The translations under genes and the position numbers were made by a program. Below the pieces are notes generated by a model, which made no database searches, had not been told where the DNA came from, and was given only the letters and a program-made list of their open reading frames with translations. From a virus, in IMG/VR virus record IMGVR_UViG_3300025759_000932, positions 1-20,133 of that record: a stretch of DNA of 20,133 nt; one strand, written 5' to 3'. Shown here piece by piece: positions 2,932 to 14,154 of this stretch; position 1 is the first letter of the stretch, and each line of letters opens with the position of its first letter.

Positions 2932-3939
2932 ATGGCATTTAGTAATACATATGACACAACAAATACGGGATCTGGTGTTTCTAACAGAGAAGACTTGACA
3001 GATGTCTTGACAATTCTTGCTCCGGAAGAAACTCCAATCCTTTCATCTGCTCAAAAGCAGAAAGCAAACGCTACATTCGTAGAGTGGACAGTAGACGCAT
3101 TAGCTGCTCCATCATCAACTGGTATCCGTGAAGGTGCTGACGTAGGTACATTCACTGATCAGTTCGCTGGACGTGCAAAACTAGGTAACTACATTCAGAA
3201 GTTCCGCCGCGATTACCAAGTATCTGATCTACAAGAAGCAGTTGATTCAGTCGGACCAGCTAAGATTGCTCAAGCAGAAGCTAAAGCAATTCGTGAGCTT
3301 AAACGCGACATCGAAAAAACTATCGCTGGTTCTCAAGATCGTACTGTAGAAAACGGTTCCGACACTCCTTATGCCCTTCGTGGTTTAGGACGTTGGTTAG
3401 AAGCTAACGCTGCTGACTCAGATGTTCCAGCAGCATTCCGTACTCCAGCAGACAGCCGCTACACAGTTGCAGAAGCTGGTGCTACAGCATTCAGTGAATC
3501 AACATTGAATGACATCATCGCTTCTATCTTCAAAGAAACTGGTACAGTTAATGACCTAACATTGGTTGCTGACACTAAATTACGCCGCGTTATCAGTGAT
3601 TTCGCTCGTGTAACTGCTTCAGCTACAAACAATGTGCGTTCAGTAAACTATGACGGTGGAGCTGGTGAAATCAAACTTACTGTTGATTTATACCAATCAG
3701 ACCACGGTATCGTTTCCATCGTAAACGGTAATCCAGATTGTATGCCAGACTTCGGTTCATCCGCTGGTGAGTCCGGATACTTAATCAACCCAGAATACGT
3801 TGGTATTCACGAGTTAATCCCAATGGGATCAACACGTCTACCTAACCAAGGTGGTGGTGAGCGTGGCTACGTGGATTGTGCTCTTACATTAGGAGTATAT
3901 CACCCACAAGCACACGGTGTTATCGAAGGAACTGCTTAA
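2932..3939 (+). CDS. Major capsid protein (SU10 / DUF5309-like HK97 fold)
   Basis: A 335-aa protein immediately after the scaffold. The N-terminus has the pattern I associate with the DUF5309 / SU10-type major head protein family: NREDLTDVLTILAPEETPIL (residues ~18-37), followed by a VEWTVDALAAP segment and then a charged helix (AKAIRELKRDIEK). The GRAKLGNYIQKFRRDYQVS region matches the part usually rich in basic residues. The C-terminus is beta-rich and Gly-rich (GGGERGYVDCALTLGVYHP). It would form the hexamers and pentamers of the icosahedral head. Codon use is the most C-ending and even of the window, as expected of a highly expressed gene. The 24-base leader lacks any Shine-Dalgarno motif. 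A terminator follows 11 bases after the stop. Confidence 0.9.
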   Translation: MAFSNTYDTTNTGSGVSNREDLTDVLTILAPEETPILSSAQKQKANATFVEWTVDALAAPSSTGIREGADVGTFTDQFAGRAKLGNYIQKFRRDYQVSDLQEAVDSVGPAKIAQAEAKAIRELKRDIEKTIAGSQDRTVENGSDTPYALRGLGRWLEANAADSDVPAAFRTPADSRYTVAEAGATAFSESTLNDIIASIFKETGTVNDLTLVADTKLRRVISDFARVTASATNNVRSVNYDGGAGEIKLTVDLYQSDHGIVSIVNGNPDCMPDFGSSAGESGYLINPEYVGIHELIPMGSTRLPNQGGGERGYVDCALTLGVYHPQAHGVIEGTA

Positions 3940-8361: not shown

Positions 8362-9201
8362 ATGGATAAGCAAACTGCCAAAAATAAACTCAAAGAATTG
8401 CGGGATTCTCTGTCCGAAGTCTTGGATGGAAAAGCCTATCAAGATTCTGAAGAGATTAAAGAGCAGTCTGCTGAAGCTATCCAACAAGCTAGGTCAGCTA
8501 GTAAGCAACTTAAAAAGTCTCTTCTTGAAAAAGTAAAAGACCTTCCGGTTGTACAGAAGGTTAGCGAACTAGGCACCGCTGGTAGTGTCGCTGTAAGTAC
8601 AGCCGCAGTTGCTCAGACAACGGTTGCGGTAGATCAGACAGAAGTCTTCGTGGCAAGTGTCGCAAACGATGTTGTCGAAGAGCGTATTGAAGTTCCATTC
8701 TTCATTGATACTTTTGTTGATTTCCACGAGTTGAATGATTGGGGTCAAGTGGTTATCGCTGAGAAGATCGCTGCGGTTTCCGAACAGTCACAGATTTCTC
8801 AACCAGCTGCTGACGCTCCGGACACCACACAAGAAACCTCTCCTTCTTCACAAAGTTCTTCCGCCGAAAATTCCTCTCAAAGCGATCAGCCACAACAAAC
8901 TGATAAATCATCAGAGTCCCAAAGCCAAGAGCAAGAATCAAAAGAAGATAGTTCATCAGAAGAAAGTGAAGAGGTTAAAGAAAGCGATTCAGAACAAGAT
9001 AAAGAAGATAAGCAAGAACAAACCCAAGAACAGCAAACTGAAGAACAGAAACAATCTCAAGAAAGTAATTCATCCTCTGAGACTAGCACAGAGTCCAATG
9101 ATGTCAAGTCCGATTTACCCACAATAGAAACACCTTTTGAACCAATGAATGATGATATGAAGCCTCATTCAAGTACAATCCCAGTATCGCCCACAAACTA
9201 A
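8362..9201 (+). CDS. Ser/Glu/Gln-rich low-complexity protein, unknown function
   Basis: A 279-aa protein in three parts. Residues 1-60 form a charged helix (LKELRDSLSEVL and EEIKEQSAEAIQQARSASKQLKK). Residues ~61-135 are Ala/Val-rich and moderately hydrophobic (GTAGSVAVSTAAVAQTTVAV, 71-90), then an aromatic segment VPFFIDTFVDFHELNDWG (111-128). Residues ~137-250 are a long disordered tract of Ser, Glu, Gln, Asp and Lys. The final ~30 residues are Pro/Thr-rich. There is no clear ribosome binding site. It lies between the holin candidate and another unknown gene. It may be a membrane-associated or virion protein with a flexible tail. I do not recognise the family. Confidence 0.7.
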   Translation: MDKQTAKNKLKELRDSLSEVLDGKAYQDSEEIKEQSAEAIQQARSASKQLKKSLLEKVKDLPVVQKVSELGTAGSVAVSTAAVAQTTVAVDQTEVFVASVANDVVEERIEVPFFIDTFVDFHELNDWGQVVIAEKIAAVSEQSQISQPAADAPDTTQETSPSSQSSSAENSSQSDQPQQTDKSSESQSQEQESKEDSSSEESEEVKESDSEQDKEDKQEQTQEQQTEEQKQSQESNSSSETSTESNDVKSDLPTIETPFEPMNDDMKPHSSTIPVSPTN

Positions 9202-9613: not shown

Positions 9614-9784
9614 ATGGAATTTTTTAAATATATATTCGATAACTACAAGGACAATATGCTCGGTATAGCATTTGCCTACATTGGTATAATATCAATAGTG
9701 GTGATGTTTTTGCCTAAGGATAACTTCATCTCTAAGCTCTTCAAAGAGTTTGCCTCAATCTTTACATCTTTATTCAAAAAGTGA
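9614..9784 (+). CDS. 56-aa single-membrane-span protein
   Basis: A short gene with ATG at 9614 (two bases after the previous stop) and TGA at 9782-9784. The product has a short aromatic N-terminus (MEFFKYIFDNYKDN), one strong membrane segment (MLGIAFAYIGIISIVVMFLP, 15-34) and a basic amphipathic C-terminal helix (SKLFKEFASIFTSLFKK). This is a plausible holin, pinholin or small accessory membrane protein. Its stop overlaps the GTG start of the PEP-CTERM-like gene by four bases (GTGA), so the two are probably translated together. No family is recognised; the frame is supported by clean coupling on both sides and by the membrane pattern. Confidence 0.65.
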   Translation: MEFFKYIFDNYKDNMLGIAFAYIGIISIVVMFLPKDNFISKLFKEFASIFTSLFKK

Positions 9785-10374
9785 AAATACTTATCCCATT
9801 ATTATTCATAAGTACAGCATTGATAGCTAATGTGTTTCTTAATAGCGTAAGCTATGATTTAACCGTAGATATAGGTGAATCAAATTATGTAGAAGGTTTT
9901 GTATTTGATGATAATTCAGAGGAACAAAATATAAAAACTTATTACGAATATATAGAGTTCCAACCAACTGCTACTGGATTCTATGATTTTAATAATTACT
10001 CAAGTGCATTGAGTAGCGGTACTAACGATACATCTGTATTATTATATGAGGGATTTGCTTCAGATAATAATTTAATCTATGATATGCCTTGGGCATTCAA
10101 TGATGACGAGTATACATTCTTTGGAGGAAAACAAGGAGATTCTTTTGAACATAGCTTTGAAGAAACATCTCTACCCTTTGATGGTTCAATATCTTTAACT
10201 AGTGGTCAAGATTACACAGCGGTGTTCACTTCTTTTGATCCTAACACAACTGGAAGAATACAATTTACAATACAAGGTCCCGGAGAACTTCAAGCGAATA
10301 TACCAGAGTCTATGCACATTGGTTTACTTATGGGACTTTGTTTACTAACATTAACACTAATTAAGAGGAAATAA
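9781..10374 (+). CDS. Secreted surface protein with PEP-CTERM-like sorting tail
   Basis: A 197-aa protein starting at GTG within the GTGA overlap. Residues 1-24 are a signal peptide (Lys2, then a hydrophobic core ILIPLLFISTALIANVFL). Residues 25-168 are beta-rich, acidic and Asn/Ser/Thr-rich. The motifs DTSVLLYEG (83-91), FNDDE (106-110), SLTSGQDYTAVFTSF (138-152) and TGRIQFTIQGPG (157-168) resemble the passenger fold of many PEP-CTERM proteins, which often end in a ...GPG strand. The C-terminus is a Pro-Glu-Ser motif at 175-177, a hydrophobic helix (IGLLMGLCLLTLTLI, 180-194) and KRK at the very end. That is the PEP-CTERM exosortase signal, with Ser in place of the second Pro. Low GC suggests host-derived or recently acquired DNA. 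It could simply be a C-terminally anchored membrane protein. Confidence 0.72.
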   Translation: MKILIPLLFISTALIANVFLNSVSYDLTVDIGESNYVEGFVFDDNSEEQNIKTYYEYIEFQPTATGFYDFNNYSSALSSGTNDTSVLLYEGFASDNNLIYDMPWAFNDDEYTFFGGKQGDSFEHSFEETSLPFDGSISLTSGQDYTAVFTSFDPNTTGRIQFTIQGPGELQANIPESMHIGLLMGLCLLTLTLIKRK

Positions 10375-10376
10375 CT

Positions 10377-10463
10377 ATGGACAAATACGGAAAAGGAAGT
10401 TGCGGCGAAAGAGTCGCTGGTAAGAAAAAACTAATGGGTAAAGGTAAAGGCTACAAAAAATAA
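10377..10463 (+). CDS. 28-aa Lys/Gly-rich micro-protein
   Basis: A very short frame with a well-placed AGAGGA ribosome binding site at 10364-10369 and ATG at 10377. The product is MDKYGKGSCGERVAGKKKLM followed by a Gly/Lys repeat (GKGKGYKK). It is very basic with a single Cys. The stop overlaps the next start by one base (TAATG). Support comes from the ribosome binding site, the coupling and the resemblance in composition to the six genes that follow. Function is unknown; DNA or RNA binding is possible from charge alone. Confidence 0.55.
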   Translation: MDKYGKGSCGERVAGKKKLMGKGKGYKK

Positions 10464-10597
10464 TGCCCGGAGGACTTATATCAGTTGTAGTAATCGGAGA
10501 CAAGAAGAAGGGTTCTTGCTGTCCAGCTTGTGCCGCCGAAAGTGAAGCAAAGGCTATACGCCGTCCTAGCGTAGGATCAACACGTAAGAAAGTATAA
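10463..10597 (+). CDS. 44-aa basic protein with Cys cluster
   Basis: A short gene that overlaps both neighbours by one base (TAATG on each side). It begins MPGGLISVVVIGDKKKG and has a Cys cluster GSCCPACAAES (17-27), then a basic tail (KAIRRPSVGSTRKKV). Three Cys within five residues suggests metal binding or disulfide formation, but no fourth ligand is obvious. No family is recognised. The coding call rests on the perfect coupling and on sharing the basic composition of the cluster. Confidence 0.55.
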   Translation: MPGGLISVVVIGDKKKGSCCPACAAESEAKAIRRPSVGSTRKKV

Positions 10598-10734
10598 TGG
10601 CTAAGATTTGTAAAAAAGGAATCGCTTGGGCACGTAGGACTTTTGATAAGTATCCTAGTGCTTATGCTAATATGGCGGCTAGTAAGTACTGTAAAGATCC
10701 TAACTACGCCAAGAAATCTAAGAAGAAGAAATAA
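10597..10734 (+). CDS. 45-aa basic protein with YPSAYAN motif
   Basis: A 45-residue protein starting by TAATG overlap. It has Cys5, then IAWARRTFDKYPSAYANMAA (9-28), Cys32 and a terminal Lys run. The YPSAYAN motif with flanking Cys is one I recall from small basic proteins and domains in marine phages and large viruses, where it recurs beside other small Cys/Lys motifs. The biochemical role is not known to me. Location inside the late operon suggests a virion or DNA-binding protein. Confidence 0.65.
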   Translation: MAKICKKGIAWARRTFDKYPSAYANMAASKYCKDPNYAKKSKKKK

Positions 10735-10740
10735 TTTATT

Positions 10741-10935
10741 ATGTTACAAGAAAGTAAAGTTCAACAAATACAAAACGCATTAACAACTAATGCAAAGTTA
10801 AAGAAAAGGGTAGACAAAATGCTACAAGAGGGTAGACCCCTAACAAGTGTAGATAAGTTATATCAAAGATCTTTAATTGAAGATAAAAAAAACTTAACCC
10901 AAATGCTTAACGAAGCTAAAAGAAAATCTAAATAA
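10741..10935 (+). CDS. 64-aa helical basic protein
   Basis: A 64-aa protein with no ribosome binding site (the leader is A/T-rich and ends TTTATT). It is nearly all helix (SKVQQIQNALTTNAKLKKRV, then DKLYQRSLIEDKKNLTQML), with a net positive charge and a Lys-Arg-Lys end. No motif is recognised. It follows the YPSAYAN gene by six bases and overlaps the next gene by one base (TAATG). Confidence 0.6.
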   Translation: MLQESKVQQIQNALTTNAKLKKRVDKMLQEGRPLTSVDKLYQRSLIEDKKNLTQMLNEAKRKSK

Positions 10936-11180
10936 TGGGTGAGCTCAAAAAGTGGAGAGAACAAAACTGGGTACGAATCGGAATTGACGGTTCAATCAAA
11001 GGACCTTGTGGAACCTCAAAAGATAAGAAAAGACCAGACCGTTGTCTTCCAATGGCAAAAGCCAAGAGTCTCACTAAGTCTGAAAGAGCGGCTACAGCTC
11101 GCAAGAAAAAAGCTGGCGGAGCAAAAGGAAAACAATTTGTAAGTAACACACCAAAAGCAAAAGTAAGGAGTAAGAAGTAA
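10935..11180 (+). CDS. 81-aa Lys-rich protein with W..ENWVRI/GPCG motif
   Basis: An 81-aa, very basic protein starting by TAATG overlap. The N-terminal third has WREQNWVRIGIDGSIKGPCG (7-26), then DRCLPMAKAKSL (35-46), then an Ala/Lys helix and a Lys-rich tail (GGAKGKQF to VRSKK). I recall this arrangement (Trp-containing start, GPCG, then a second Cys in RCLP) in small basic proteins of marine phages. Two conserved Cys suggest a small metal-bound or disulfide-bonded fold. Function is unknown. A 67-aa frame over the same bases from 10939 is an out-of-frame shadow. Confidence 0.65.
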   Translation: MGELKKWREQNWVRIGIDGSIKGPCGTSKDKKRPDRCLPMAKAKSLTKSERAATARKKKAGGAKGKQFVSNTPKAKVRSKK

Positions 11181-11581
11181 TGATTAAGATAGAGAGAAAC
11201 CCAGACGGTAGCATTAAAGCTGCTTACAGTGTAGATGCTTCTGGTATGAGACTTCGTGCTATGGACCCAACTCCTATTCCAGTATTAGGCTCTATGCCCC
11301 AAGCTACTAAACCTTCATTAGATGCTATTTTAGGAAATGTAAAAGTAGATCCAATTACTGGAAGATCTGGTCGAAGAACATTTGATGAGTTTAAAAATTT
11401 TATAAAAATAAATAAAGAATCTTTCATAAGAGATAAAGGAAAATTTGAAGGATTCAGAGGAGGAGGAATAAAAAGTTTCAATGCTATACTTGATGATCTA
11501 CAAGAAGGTAAATTTGATAAACTTACTGAAGAAGAAGCAAAGTACGTAGACGATTTAAAAAACAATAAAATTAATTTATAA
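11180..11581 (+). CDS. Hypothetical protein
   Basis: A 133-aa protein with an AAGGAG site at 11164-11169 and a TAATG overlap with the previous stop. It opens with a short beta stretch (MIKIERNPDGSIKAAYSV), followed by a Pro-rich linker (MDPTPIPVLGSMPQATKPSL, 28-47), then a helical basic/acidic half (RRTFDEFKNFIKIN and LTEEEAKYVDDL). Base composition falls to very low GC after ~11380. No family is recognised. The Pro-rich linker between two small domains might mark a short tail-completion or linker protein, but this is a guess. Confidence 0.62.
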   Translation: MIKIERNPDGSIKAAYSVDASGMRLRAMDPTPIPVLGSMPQATKPSLDAILGNVKVDPITGRSGRRTFDEFKNFIKINKESFIRDKGKFEGFRGGGIKSFNAILDDLQEGKFDKLTEEEAKYVDDLKNNKINL

Positions 11582-11826
11582 TGGCTATCGACAAAAAGAA
11601 GATGAAGTGCAACGTACCTCGCCGAGATGTTCAAGGCGGCAAGAAGTTCGTAGTAAAAGCTTGTGAAGGTGGTAAAGAAAAGATTATTCGTTTCGGAGAT
11701 GCGAATATGAAAATCAAAAAGAATATACCAGCTAGCAAGAAAAGCTATTGTGCTCGTAGTGCTGGCATTAAAGGCAAAGGAAAGATGTCCGCTAACTATT
11801 GGTCAAGAAAGGCTTGGGACTGCTAG
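11581..11826 (+). CDS. 81-aa basic protein, FGDxNM..YWSxxxW family
   Basis: An 81-aa protein started by TAATG overlap with no ribosome binding site. It contains KFVVKACEGGKEKIIRFGDA (22-41), NMKIKKN, SYCARSAGI and ANYWSRKAW, ending in Asp-Cys. The pattern FGDxNMxIKxxxP...AR....A.YWSxxxW is one I associate with a widespread small domain in phages and other viruses from aquatic samples, often alone or fused to structural or Cys-containing parts. Its role is unknown to me. It ends directly before the nozzle gene without a gap. Four Cys are present (C10, C28, C57, C81). Confidence 0.7.
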   Translation: MAIDKKKMKCNVPRRDVQGGKKFVVKACEGGKEKIIRFGDANMKIKKNIPASKKSYCARSAGIKGKGKMSANYWSRKAWDC

Positions 11827-14154
11827 ATGGCAAGATACGATACATACACTCGCTTCGATGACAGAATGTTGGAGGAGCTAGACCGCGGATTCATTGGATT
11901 CAACAATCGTCTACGCCCAGACCAGTTGACCTCTGGTATTTTATTTGATAGCCAAAATGGTAGAATGGCTCAAAACGGCGAGTGGCAAACTCGTAAAGGT
12001 ATTGATAATATTAAGGCACCTTTATCTGTAGGTGGATCAGCTTTGACTTTACCTTTTGATTTAGATGATGGTGGAACGGAACCACAATTAAATGATGATG
12101 CCGTCAATGAAGTATATGGTTCTTGTATTTTCTCTGATCCCAACGATGAGTCCGAAAGCTATATAATTTTAGCCGCTAACACAAAAGCTGTAGCAATCAA
12201 AGTTTCAGATTCTAGTACTGAATACGATTTAGCATATCCCGGAGGTGAGACCATTTCATCTCCAGTTGAAATGATTCAAGCATTTAATAAACTGATTATA
12301 TTCCGCAAAGGAGATACACCCTTTGAAAAAGATTTATCCGCTACAAATATTAATACAGAGCCAACATTAGACAAGGTGTCAAGCGGAGAGTACAGTCAAC
12401 CAACTCAGATTGTTTGTGCCGCTGGTGAGTTCGCTTTGATTGAAAACCGAGGAGTAGTACACCAAACAGACGGAGTATCTCAAGGAGATATTATTTCAGT
12501 AGTAGGAGATAAAACACTTTCGGCAGATCAAACATCTGGTTTAGTAATCGGAGAAAGATTAACAGTAGCTAAAGTATTTACTGCTGGTTCTACTACAAGT
12601 ATAACAAATGTAACTAAAGCACTTATAACTGGAGGTGAGTTCGATGGATTATACAAAATTACGGCTACTGCTTCTGGTCACGGAAAAAATGTTGGAGATC
12701 CCATTACAATAGCTAATTTTGGTGACGTTAAGATTGACGGTAAAAGATTCGTATCTGAAGTAAACGGAAATGATATAATATTTTATGTTCCACAGAATCC
12801 TTCTACTACAATTAGTGGAGATGAAACTCTAGCTCTAGCCGCTGGATTTGAATTTTATTTGGACGCATCTAAGACAAGTACCCACGTAACAGATGGACAA
12901 AGCTTAACAAGTACACCAGTATTTGCTCGCAAGGTTTCCGAAGGATTAGGATTCTCTCATATGCCAGCACCAGAGTACGGCGTATATCACCAACGCAGAC
13001 TCGCGGTTCCTTACAGATATAGCGTAGATGACGTAGCTGATACATATTCGGATCGTAAAATATTCGATGAGATTCTTATATCAGATATTCTTGATACAGA
13101 TACATACGACCAAGTATACGGACAGTTTAGATTCAATGCTGGTAGATCTGATTTTAACGTAGGTATGTTATCATTCTCTGACGATAAGTTAGTTGTATTC
13201 AACAGAAATAGCATTCATATAGTAGTAGGAAACGGAGACTTAGGCGGATTCCAATCTCAGTTACTTACAGATGAAGTTGGATTAACTGCCAAAAACTCAG
13301 TGATTCAAGTCGGTAATCAGATTATATTCTTATCAGACAACGGTGTTTATGGACTGAGCTTCGTGGACTTATATAACCTTCGCGGAAATGAAGTACCACT
13401 ATCTGAAAGTATTCAAAAGACAATAGATACAATAAACAAAGCACACGTAGATAAAGCTAGTGCTGTATACTTTGATAACAAATATTACTTAGCTGTACCT
13501 ACTGGAACCTCTACAGTAAATAATACTTTATTGATTTATAACTTCTTAAATAAAAGCTGGGAGTCTATAGATACTGTAAATAATGTAGACACAGATGGTA
13601 ATTCTTTCTCATCCTTTGAGTTCACTGAATTATTGGTAGCTGGTAAAGGTTTAAAAAGAGGGGTTTACGTAACAAATACAGATGGTGGTATTCATAGATT
13701 AGAAGTATTCGCTGATGGTATCGATAGAGTAATCACAGATATTGGTCAACCAGCAACGATAAAAGAAACTAGAGTTCAAGGTTCAGCTACTACTAGAATG
13801 TTTACACTAGGTTCCATAGACCGCAAGAAGTTCAACAACTTCGAGCTTCATTTGCAGTCCGGTCCAGATAACTCATCGGATATTTCTATAGCTGCTACAA
13901 CAGAAAATTTAGATAGTAAAGTTCTAGACGAAAATGGCGACTTAGTTGACGGAGCTATTGACCTAAAGAAAGCTAGTAATTATATAGGAACCGTAGTAGC
14001 TCCAGACGAGGATGTATCTGTCAGAGGACGTATCGGAAACAAAAGAGCCTACGGCTTACAAGTGACTTTAACAAGTATTCTAGGTAGACCTAGATTTAGA
14101 TCTCTCAAAATTGCCGGAGCCGAGACGTTCCGCTCGACAAGTAGTGTACAATAG
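11827..14154 (+). CDS. Tail nozzle / tail tubular protein B-like
   Basis: A 775-aa protein, close in length to T7 gp12 (794 aa), which forms the hexameric nozzle at the tip of the short tail. The conserved N-terminus has FIGFNNRLRPDQLTSGILFD (22-41) followed by NGRMAQNGEWQTRKGID, a pattern common to the stabilisation and tail-nozzle proteins of podoviruses. The rest is a long run of beta segments with many blade-like repeats (Gly/Asp turns, aromatic strands), as expected of a beta-propeller. Examples are VVFNRNSIHIVVGNGD and IIFLSDNGVYGLSFVDLYNL. No membrane segment is seen. It starts directly after the preceding stop codon. The call is by size, N-terminal motif and gene order. Confidence 0.68.
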   Translation: MARYDTYTRFDDRMLEELDRGFIGFNNRLRPDQLTSGILFDSQNGRMAQNGEWQTRKGIDNIKAPLSVGGSALTLPFDLDDGGTEPQLNDDAVNEVYGSCIFSDPNDESESYIILAANTKAVAIKVSDSSTEYDLAYPGGETISSPVEMIQAFNKLIIFRKGDTPFEKDLSATNINTEPTLDKVSSGEYSQPTQIVCAAGEFALIENRGVVHQTDGVSQGDIISVVGDKTLSADQTSGLVIGERLTVAKVFTAGSTTSITNVTKALITGGEFDGLYKITATASGHGKNVGDPITIANFGDVKIDGKRFVSEVNGNDIIFYVPQNPSTTISGDETLALAAGFEFYLDASKTSTHVTDGQSLTSTPVFARKVSEGLGFSHMPAPEYGVYHQRRLAVPYRYSVDDVADTYSDRKIFDEILISDILDTDTYDQVYGQFRFNAGRSDFNVGMLSFSDDKLVVFNRNSIHIVVGNGDLGGFQSQLLTDEVGLTAKNSVIQVGNQIIFLSDNGVYGLSFVDLYNLRGNEVPLSESIQKTIDTINKAHVDKASAVYFDNKYYLAVPTGTSTVNNTLLIYNFLNKSWESIDTVNNVDTDGNSFSSFEFTELLVAGKGLKRGVYVTNTDGGIHRLEVFADGIDRVITDIGQPATIKETRVQGSATTRMFTLGSIDRKKFNNFELHLQSGPDNSSDISIAATTENLDSKVLDENGDLVDGAIDLKKASNYIGTVVAPDEDVSVRGRIGNKRAYGLQVTLTSILGRPRFRSLKIAGAETFRSTSSVQ

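Follow-up and report, generated by a model that had tools for sequence, protein, structure and literature searches.

The seven tiny basic genes at 10377-11826 of the window, by which we mean the whole uncultured IMG/VR virus fragment of 20,133 bases analysed here, include three (g45, g81a and g81b, carrying the modules here called P, A and F) that, judged by sequence comparison, are stand-alone copies of modules strung together in the virion proteins of other phages. We lean, if only slightly, towards the reading that its products are small basic proteins located inside the head, which would enter at the prohead stage and then stay with the DNA. The support for it, established at the level of sequence, is a family relationship made up of module identity, a conserved cassette and fused relatives in virions; the interior location and the retention with DNA are what we infer from fusions to head proteases and from the capsid of phage P-SCSP1u, which consists of the major capsid protein (MCP) alone. 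Added to the preliminary description of this DNA are the relation of the cluster, as a probable split form, to multi-module virion proteins, the presence of the g81b module on head proteases, a GKG peptide family that travels with the cassette, and a function that we infer.

Organization of the cluster

The late region of the window is podovirus-like. Its genes run in the order portal, lysozyme, acidic scaffold-like protein, SU10-type MCP (PF17236, 4e-52), other structural genes, holin-like gene, the cluster, a 775-aa protein and a Gp10_C tail protein, where portal, scaffold and holin are putative names suggested by gene order. The cluster consists of seven head-to-tail ORFs (Table 1), and the preliminary description proved accurate as to their sizes, coupling and charge: five junctions are TAATG one-base overlaps, a 6-base gap separates g45 from g64, and the products are without exception basic, with pI values of 9.1-10.8 and net charges from +3 to +19. 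Downstream, g81b abuts the 775-aa gene starting at 11827. The neighbours are mostly acidic, with net charges of -28 (scaffold-like), -16 (MCP), -54 (a 748-aa protein) and -34 (the 775-aa protein); the scaffold gene is not adjacent to the cassette. The signature motifs are present and conserved, one of them having been misread (the sequence is WREQNWVRI, not W..ENWVRI). A location between tail genes was too loosely worded, as it fits the head-closure/tail-tube-like gene downstream, but the genes upstream encode a putative secreted protein and a holin-like product.

Two proteins encoded upstream were also noted. The 197-aa neighbour is acidic and starts with a hydrophobic N-terminus; near its C-terminus is another hydrophobic stretch, which ends in KRK and is reminiscent of a sorting signal. 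The protein matched no PHROG, Pfam or NCBIfam family above noise. A 279-aa protein (8362-9201; net charge -35, Gln/Ser/Glu-rich) is a possible electrostatic partner of the basic products.

Table 1. The cluster and its immediate neighbours in the window.
Feature	Coordinates	Strand	Basis
Upstream neighbour, 197 aa, GTG start, hydrophobic ends	9781..10374	+	ORF
g28, 28 aa, GKGSCGE-type basic micro-protein	10377..10463	+	ORF; motif family; pN/pS
g44, 44 aa, CCPAC protein	10463..10597	+	ORF; relatives keep CC..C
g45, 45 aa, YPSAYAN module (P)	10597..10734	+	phrog_27331 3.1e-22
g64, 64 aa, accessory	10741..10935	+	ORF; 6/161 sources
g81a, 81 aa, WVRI/GPCG module (A), DUF5872-like	10935..11180	+	phrog_23735 1.1e-27
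g133, 133 aa, accessory inserted in cassette	11180..11581	+	ORF; 11/161 sources
g81b, 81 aa, FGDxNM...YWS module (F), DUF6321-like	11581..11826	+	phrog_7595 1.2e-15
775-aa neighbour, head-closure Hc3 / tail-tube-B-like	11827..14154	+	phrog_3287 3.8e-14, phrog_578 3.2e-8

Three of the genes form a conserved cassette

The seven genes had been described as one unit. Across 161 sources, which take in the window itself and a copy of it (L001), relatives were found for g81b in 128, g81a in 112, g45 in 96 and g44 in 26, and for the accessory genes g133 and g64 in only 11 and 6; the 775-aa gene had relatives in 109, mostly straight after g81b. The counts for g64 and g133 rule out a single functional unit of seven genes, and the conserved cassette comprises three to five of them. 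Purifying selection is clear on g45, g81a and g81b, with pN/pS ratios of 0.18 (41 relatives), 0.22 (71) and 0.18 (85) respectively, and is weaker or thinly sampled on g28 (0.40; 4 relatives), g44 (0.45; 11), g133 (0.49; 7) and g64 (0.53; 2 relatives only); these ratios are uncorrected, were taken against distinct IMG/VR relatives and have pS near saturation for some genes.

Module order was compared across 239 loci gathered by similarity to g81b, g81a and the g81b type of Roseobacter phage CRP-901 (80 kept for each among the matches listed, one shared); P was never used as bait. Among these matches, P, A and F occurred together in 121 loci, F alone in 102, F with P in 7, A with F in 6, A alone in 2 and A with P in 1, in a sample where contig ends truncate many loci and where the g81a HMM missed a CRP-901 copy known from another comparison. 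The 121 full cassettes among the matches listed each lay on one strand and followed one cyclic order, P-A-F in 96 and F-P-A in 25; the median gap from P to A was 36 nt. With identical copies removed there were 106 cassettes among the matches listed (82 P-A-F, 24 F-P-A), and in 5 of these the gap exceeded 400 nt. Where 3 kb was present on both sides of a stand-alone F, both partners were found in 47/74 loci among the matches listed. An FPSAYAS gene often takes the position of YPSAYAN in loci where the latter is missing, and FPSAYAS or WPSAYAS variants were found either at the position of g45 or within fused proteins. In the window the modules run P-A-F, interrupted by g64 and g133; we assign g45, g81a and g81b to the conserved cassette and class g64 and g133 as local extras.

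The same modules occur in phages of Pelagibacter, Roseobacter and cyanobacteria. The cassettes of HTVC106P and HTVC027P (Pelagibacter) and P-SCSP2 (Prochlorococcus) carry P, A and F as small separate genes, as in the window, and in T7-like relatives the small forms adjoin scaffold and capsid genes. A further small basic family (GLYANIHAKRKRI...) is encoded next to the cassette genes of T7-like cyano- and pelagiphages (L173, 4213-4365; L175, 3861-4007; L185, 3279-3455) and is absent from the cluster ORFs of the window. The expectation that such short genes escape gene callers holds true in relatives: two cassette genes of CRP-901, a PSAYGS-type and a DUF5872-like ORF lying head to tail before an 'HVA1 family protein' gene, are unannotated (L167, 3463-3983), and in phage C75C1 (OQ984151) the annotated CDS0044 (L162, 3320-3508) is in another frame than the g45 relative at 3358-3486.

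Family assignment of the individual products

Relatives of g81a and g81b pass the cut-off of the Pfam families DUF5872 or DUF6321, whereas the window proteins do not. At E ≤ 1, g81a had no match to DUF5872 (PF19197, gathering score 27.5) and g81b none to DUF6321 (PF19846, gathering score 28.5), and direct membership of DUF5872, DUF6321 or DUF5754, all three of unknown function, was rejected for the window proteins because no match reached the cut-off. Against DUF5872, the A protein of P-SCSP2 scored 53.3 bits, above the gathering score, and that of HTVC027P 21 bits, below it, leaving P-SCSP2 as the only one of the two to pass; F is of the DUF6321 type in both phages. Profile comparison of g81b with the DUF6321 seeds (hhalign) gave a probability of 95.6 (E 1.2e-8, 51 columns). 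For DUF5754 (PF19058), the FGD module had no match in the window, and the HTVC008M gp131 match (E 0.17) was under the cut-off, with nothing above it. Phrog_23735 is common to the window and HTVC027P, and a genome scan for g81a returned one distant match.

Profile searches gave no PHROG match for g28, g44, g64 or g133, no Pfam match above threshold for g64, and no helpful NCBIfam match for six window proteins. The CC..C motif of g44 is retained among its 15 distinct relatives, and the cysteine pair C25/C37 of g81a in 9/9 aligned proteins. The cysteine positions of g81b shift between subfamilies, and for this reason we make no claim of a metal site (zinc finger). Lysine-rich tails are found throughout the relatives of the cluster families.

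A peptide family that travels with the cassette

Members of the g28 family were counted by the motif M-x(0-9)-G-K/R-G-S/T-Y/C-G, since an iterated HMM drifted onto neighbouring genes. Among the matches listed, the 239 IMG/VR loci contained GKG(S/T)(C/Y)G in 47/26,623 short ORFs, one per locus, and shuffled ORFs gave a mean of 0.0. All 47 lay on the cassette strand, 46 of them no more than 600 nt from a cassette module (median distance 30 nt); the motif was drafted after some members were known, and strand and distance played no part in the drafting. We thus class the 28-aa product of g28 as a member of a GKG(S/T)(C/Y)G peptide family encoded beside the cassette.

The family divides by its cysteine or tyrosine. 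RGRP is the core of the AT-hook. TYG-type relatives carry GRP in 22/22 and RGRP in 8, compared with RGRP in 38/34,177 other short ORFs; the SCG type, to which the window's g28 belongs, has GRP in 0/25, ruling out an AT-hook for this protein. These counts bear on a histone-like role, in line with the DNA condensation suggested as one option in the preliminary description, in which the proteins would coat or bundle late phage DNA and reach the head together with it, contact with the prohead being secondary. The GRP of the TYG type, the lysine-rich tails and the net charges of +6 to +19 of g28, g44, g45, g81a and g81b all suit such a role; the SCG type of the window speaks against it, as do the protease fusions and the fold comparisons described below, and we regard it as possible but doubtful.

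The modules recur in fused virion proteins

The preliminary description had suggested looking for the motifs as fused domains elsewhere, and they were found in cyanomyovirus proteins, in head proteases and in cytidyltransferases. One chain carries A, then WPSAYAS, then a C-terminal DUF6321 in ACG-2014f gp131 (926 aa, located between the terminase genes), in S-B43 and in S-SCSM1 ORF29 (517 aa, with A at residues 71-142 of the open frame). In P-SSM4 a single protein (T4-GC119) combines A with DUF6321, and WPSAYAS belongs to a protein nearby; in S-CREM2, gp160 combines A with WPSAYAS, and DUF6321 is on gp137. The fused proteins of cyanomyoviruses (S-SCSM1 ORF29, PHROG 727, T4-GC119) are thus single polypeptides of 430-930 aa with extra modules, ORF29 holding types A, P and F and the P-SSM4 protein A and F, whereas the window has three genes with spacers.

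The A family links the window strongly to these fused proteins. Here, g81a aligns with modules of virion proteins, and the A4 model matched in the S-SCSM1 and S-CREM2 genomes at E 7e-25 and 9e-26, although it included stretches of these proteins; an earlier A model, seeded without S-SCSM1, gave 4.5e-15. The link between g45 and WPSAYAS is the weakest, with profile comparison probabilities of 44-78 together with a shared PSAYA core and position.

Two further observations concern the fused proteins. S-CREM1, the third genome checked, has one stand-alone DUF6321 gene (L270, 2387-2662) and no A or P; this gene lies between the small and large terminase genes, where related phages have the fused protein, placing split and fused forms at one site. 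Both fused virion proteins (L179, 42662-44215; L184, 21843-22736) bear another cysteine module, CW-GYEKKG...NCVKK.

Carriers of the modules are detected in virions

Published information on the phages and viruses discussed here comes from the available parts of PMC10665884, PMC9146016, PMC10575957, PMC9602691, PMC3037559, PMC12085832, PMC7567579, PMC9040626, PMC9964418, PMC6224464, PMC13002823 and PMC8299487. According to these, 45 proteins of S-SCSM1 were detected by mass spectrometry (MS), and the S-CREM2 virion table lists gp160 with 7 unique peptides and gp137 with 4; the S-SCSM1 record marks ORF29 as a virion protein. Scans of the whole records found each module once per genome, always in ORF29, gp160 or gp137. 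All three carriers are therefore in the published MS lists (3/3), against 45/282 and 52/221 over all genes. The chance of this under random detection is about 0.009 (45/282 x 52/221 x 51/220), a rough figure that makes 3/3 modest evidence because detection favours large late proteins. CsCl preparations can hold contaminants, as the S-CREM2 authors remark of their own non-structural proteins in the part of their paper available. The excerpts of the P-SSP7, mimivirus DNA-protein and S-TIM4 papers make no mention of these modules, and the available account of the S-SZBM1 proteome leaves five proteins of unknown function unnamed.

The earlier suggestion that the cluster products are packaged thus gains support through relatives, namely the three carriers in two MS-studied cyanophages, and would by extension apply to the window. 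These MS data come from fused proteins of distant myoviruses, and another part of those proteins could direct their entry into virions. The stand-alone forms might instead be late proteins that act only inside the cell and stay out of the particle, such as assembly chaperones or RNA-binding regulators, and the cited literature, as far as available, does not report them in particles. Their fused relatives, however, are in particles and remain there after purification, and we hold an exclusively intracellular role to be highly improbable.

The F module is joined to head proteases and nucleotide enzymes

In ICP1 ORF125, an XkdF-type protease (PF14550, Pfam 6.6e-10) is followed at the C-terminus by a g81b-type module (3.8e-15), whereas g81b in the window stands alone. 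The ICP1 literature, in its available parts, describes Gp125 as the predicted procapsid protease. A module of this type also precedes an XkdF-type protease in 5 IMG/VR loci, all of one lineage, and the count of such fusions is therefore small. A maturation protease must be in the prohead before DNA, which leads us to favour a role of the module in prohead entry over a purely DNA-borne one. The histone-like reading would have to accommodate a module riding on enzymes expected in the prohead before the DNA.

Predicted folds were also compared. The AlphaFold2 models of g81a and g81b had pLDDT values of 76-77 (g81b: pLDDT 76, pTM 0.61). The g81b model matched domains within larger predicted phage proteins (17 rows at probability of at least 0.98); the proteins matched include one named XkdF, one named ChaB, ICP1 ORF125 and a Marseillevirus protein (E 0.096). 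Against the PDB, Foldseek returned no match at E < 1 for either model, the best VIA Z score was 2.0, and sequence searches found no solved relative of the modules. The absence of a DNA-binding protein above noise in this fold comparison is a further point against a histone-like role.

In Melnitz gp18 and in L258, the F module also ends a cytidyltransferase that bears DUF5824. Cytidyltransferase/NMNAT-like proteins have been detected by MS in S-SM1, S-SCSM1, S-CREM2 and S-SZBM1, as the available parts of those reports state. This linkage, together with the fused relatives in virions, would suit an effector cargo that travels in the virion and, once ejected, acts early on host nucleic acids or enzymes, a role of the kind that the S-SCSM1 and S-CREM2 authors propose for the cytidyltransferase/NMNAT-like enzymes in the accessible text. 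The same modules across phages of Pelagibacter, Roseobacter and cyanobacteria nevertheless point to a structural partner more than to a host target, and the g81b module rides on head proteases as well; we consider effector cargo quite unlikely. As separate observations, DUF5824 accompanies the g81b module in cytidyltransferase and XkdF fusions (L258, L260, L174) and may be another head-associated module, and in immuto phages and HTVC008M (L170, 4291-5282; L164, 2055-4246) a g81b-type gene comes straight after an 'NAD synthetase' or cytidyltransferase gene.

The P-SCSP1u capsid argues against a cement protein

P-SCSP1u encodes a DUF6321 protein (4.3e-28) directly after its MCP, and its capsid, described at 3.2 Å in the available part of the structural report, consists of MCP alone with no decoration proteins. 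Since the capsid is MCP-only though the module is encoded, stand-alone F would not be an icosahedral cement in this phage; it would lie inside without symmetry, or be absent. An unannotated GKGTYG peptide ORF was also seen between the MCP and DUF6321 genes (L185, 2939-3034). The preliminary description had offered virion stabilization as one function. The location in the late structural region, the small size of the products and, in T7-like relatives, the adjacency to the capsid gene would fit a cement or decoration protein stabilizing an icosahedral shell, but the capsid of this relative disfavours the idea: we rejected it as the main reading and give it only the slimmest chance.

Discussion

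The interior-head reading invites comparison with the internal proteins IPI-III of T4, small basic proteins that enter the T4 prohead and remain with the DNA. We propose this as an analogy and not as a sequence comparison; the targeting peptide and protease cleavage are features of T4. In the mechanism that we propose, the coupled late genes would be translated together, as their overlaps suggest, and the modules may enter the prohead by contacts with the acidic scaffold or inner shell, as the protease fusions and the charge of the products suggest. Basic tails, and perhaps the GKG peptide, might then grip the entering DNA, and the proteins might stay in the mature head and even be ejected with the genome, both steps being speculative.

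A wider proposal is that P, A and F form a virus-wide head-entry code of interchangeable domains (alone, strung together, or fused to proteases or nucleotide enzymes) that would bring proteins into tailed-phage proheads and, by way of DUF5872/DUF5754-type relatives, into the particles of algal and amoebal giant viruses. The preliminary description had associated the motifs with aquatic phages and other viruses. The first part agrees with the marine phages found here; the giant-virus link depends on the DUF5872 match of a phage relative, on the listing of DUF5872 and DUF5754 proteins in the available part of an algal virus paper, and on the Marseillevirus predicted-fold match noted above. We think a code of this breadth unlikely.

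The families are common in marine phages, with at least 577 relatives of g81a and at least 555 of g81b, all filed as of unknown function, and deposited annotation misses genes of 20-45 aa. Searches of the open-licence literature found no paper on the relation between split and fused forms of these modules, and none on DUF6321 or DUF5824. Seen as the split form of larger virion proteins, the cluster points to a shared, uncharacterised set of phage-head parts. The apparent sharing of modules between separate tiny genes and large virion proteins offers a first functional handle on these families; should the modules prove to bring proteins into the head, they would amount to natural encapsidation tags.
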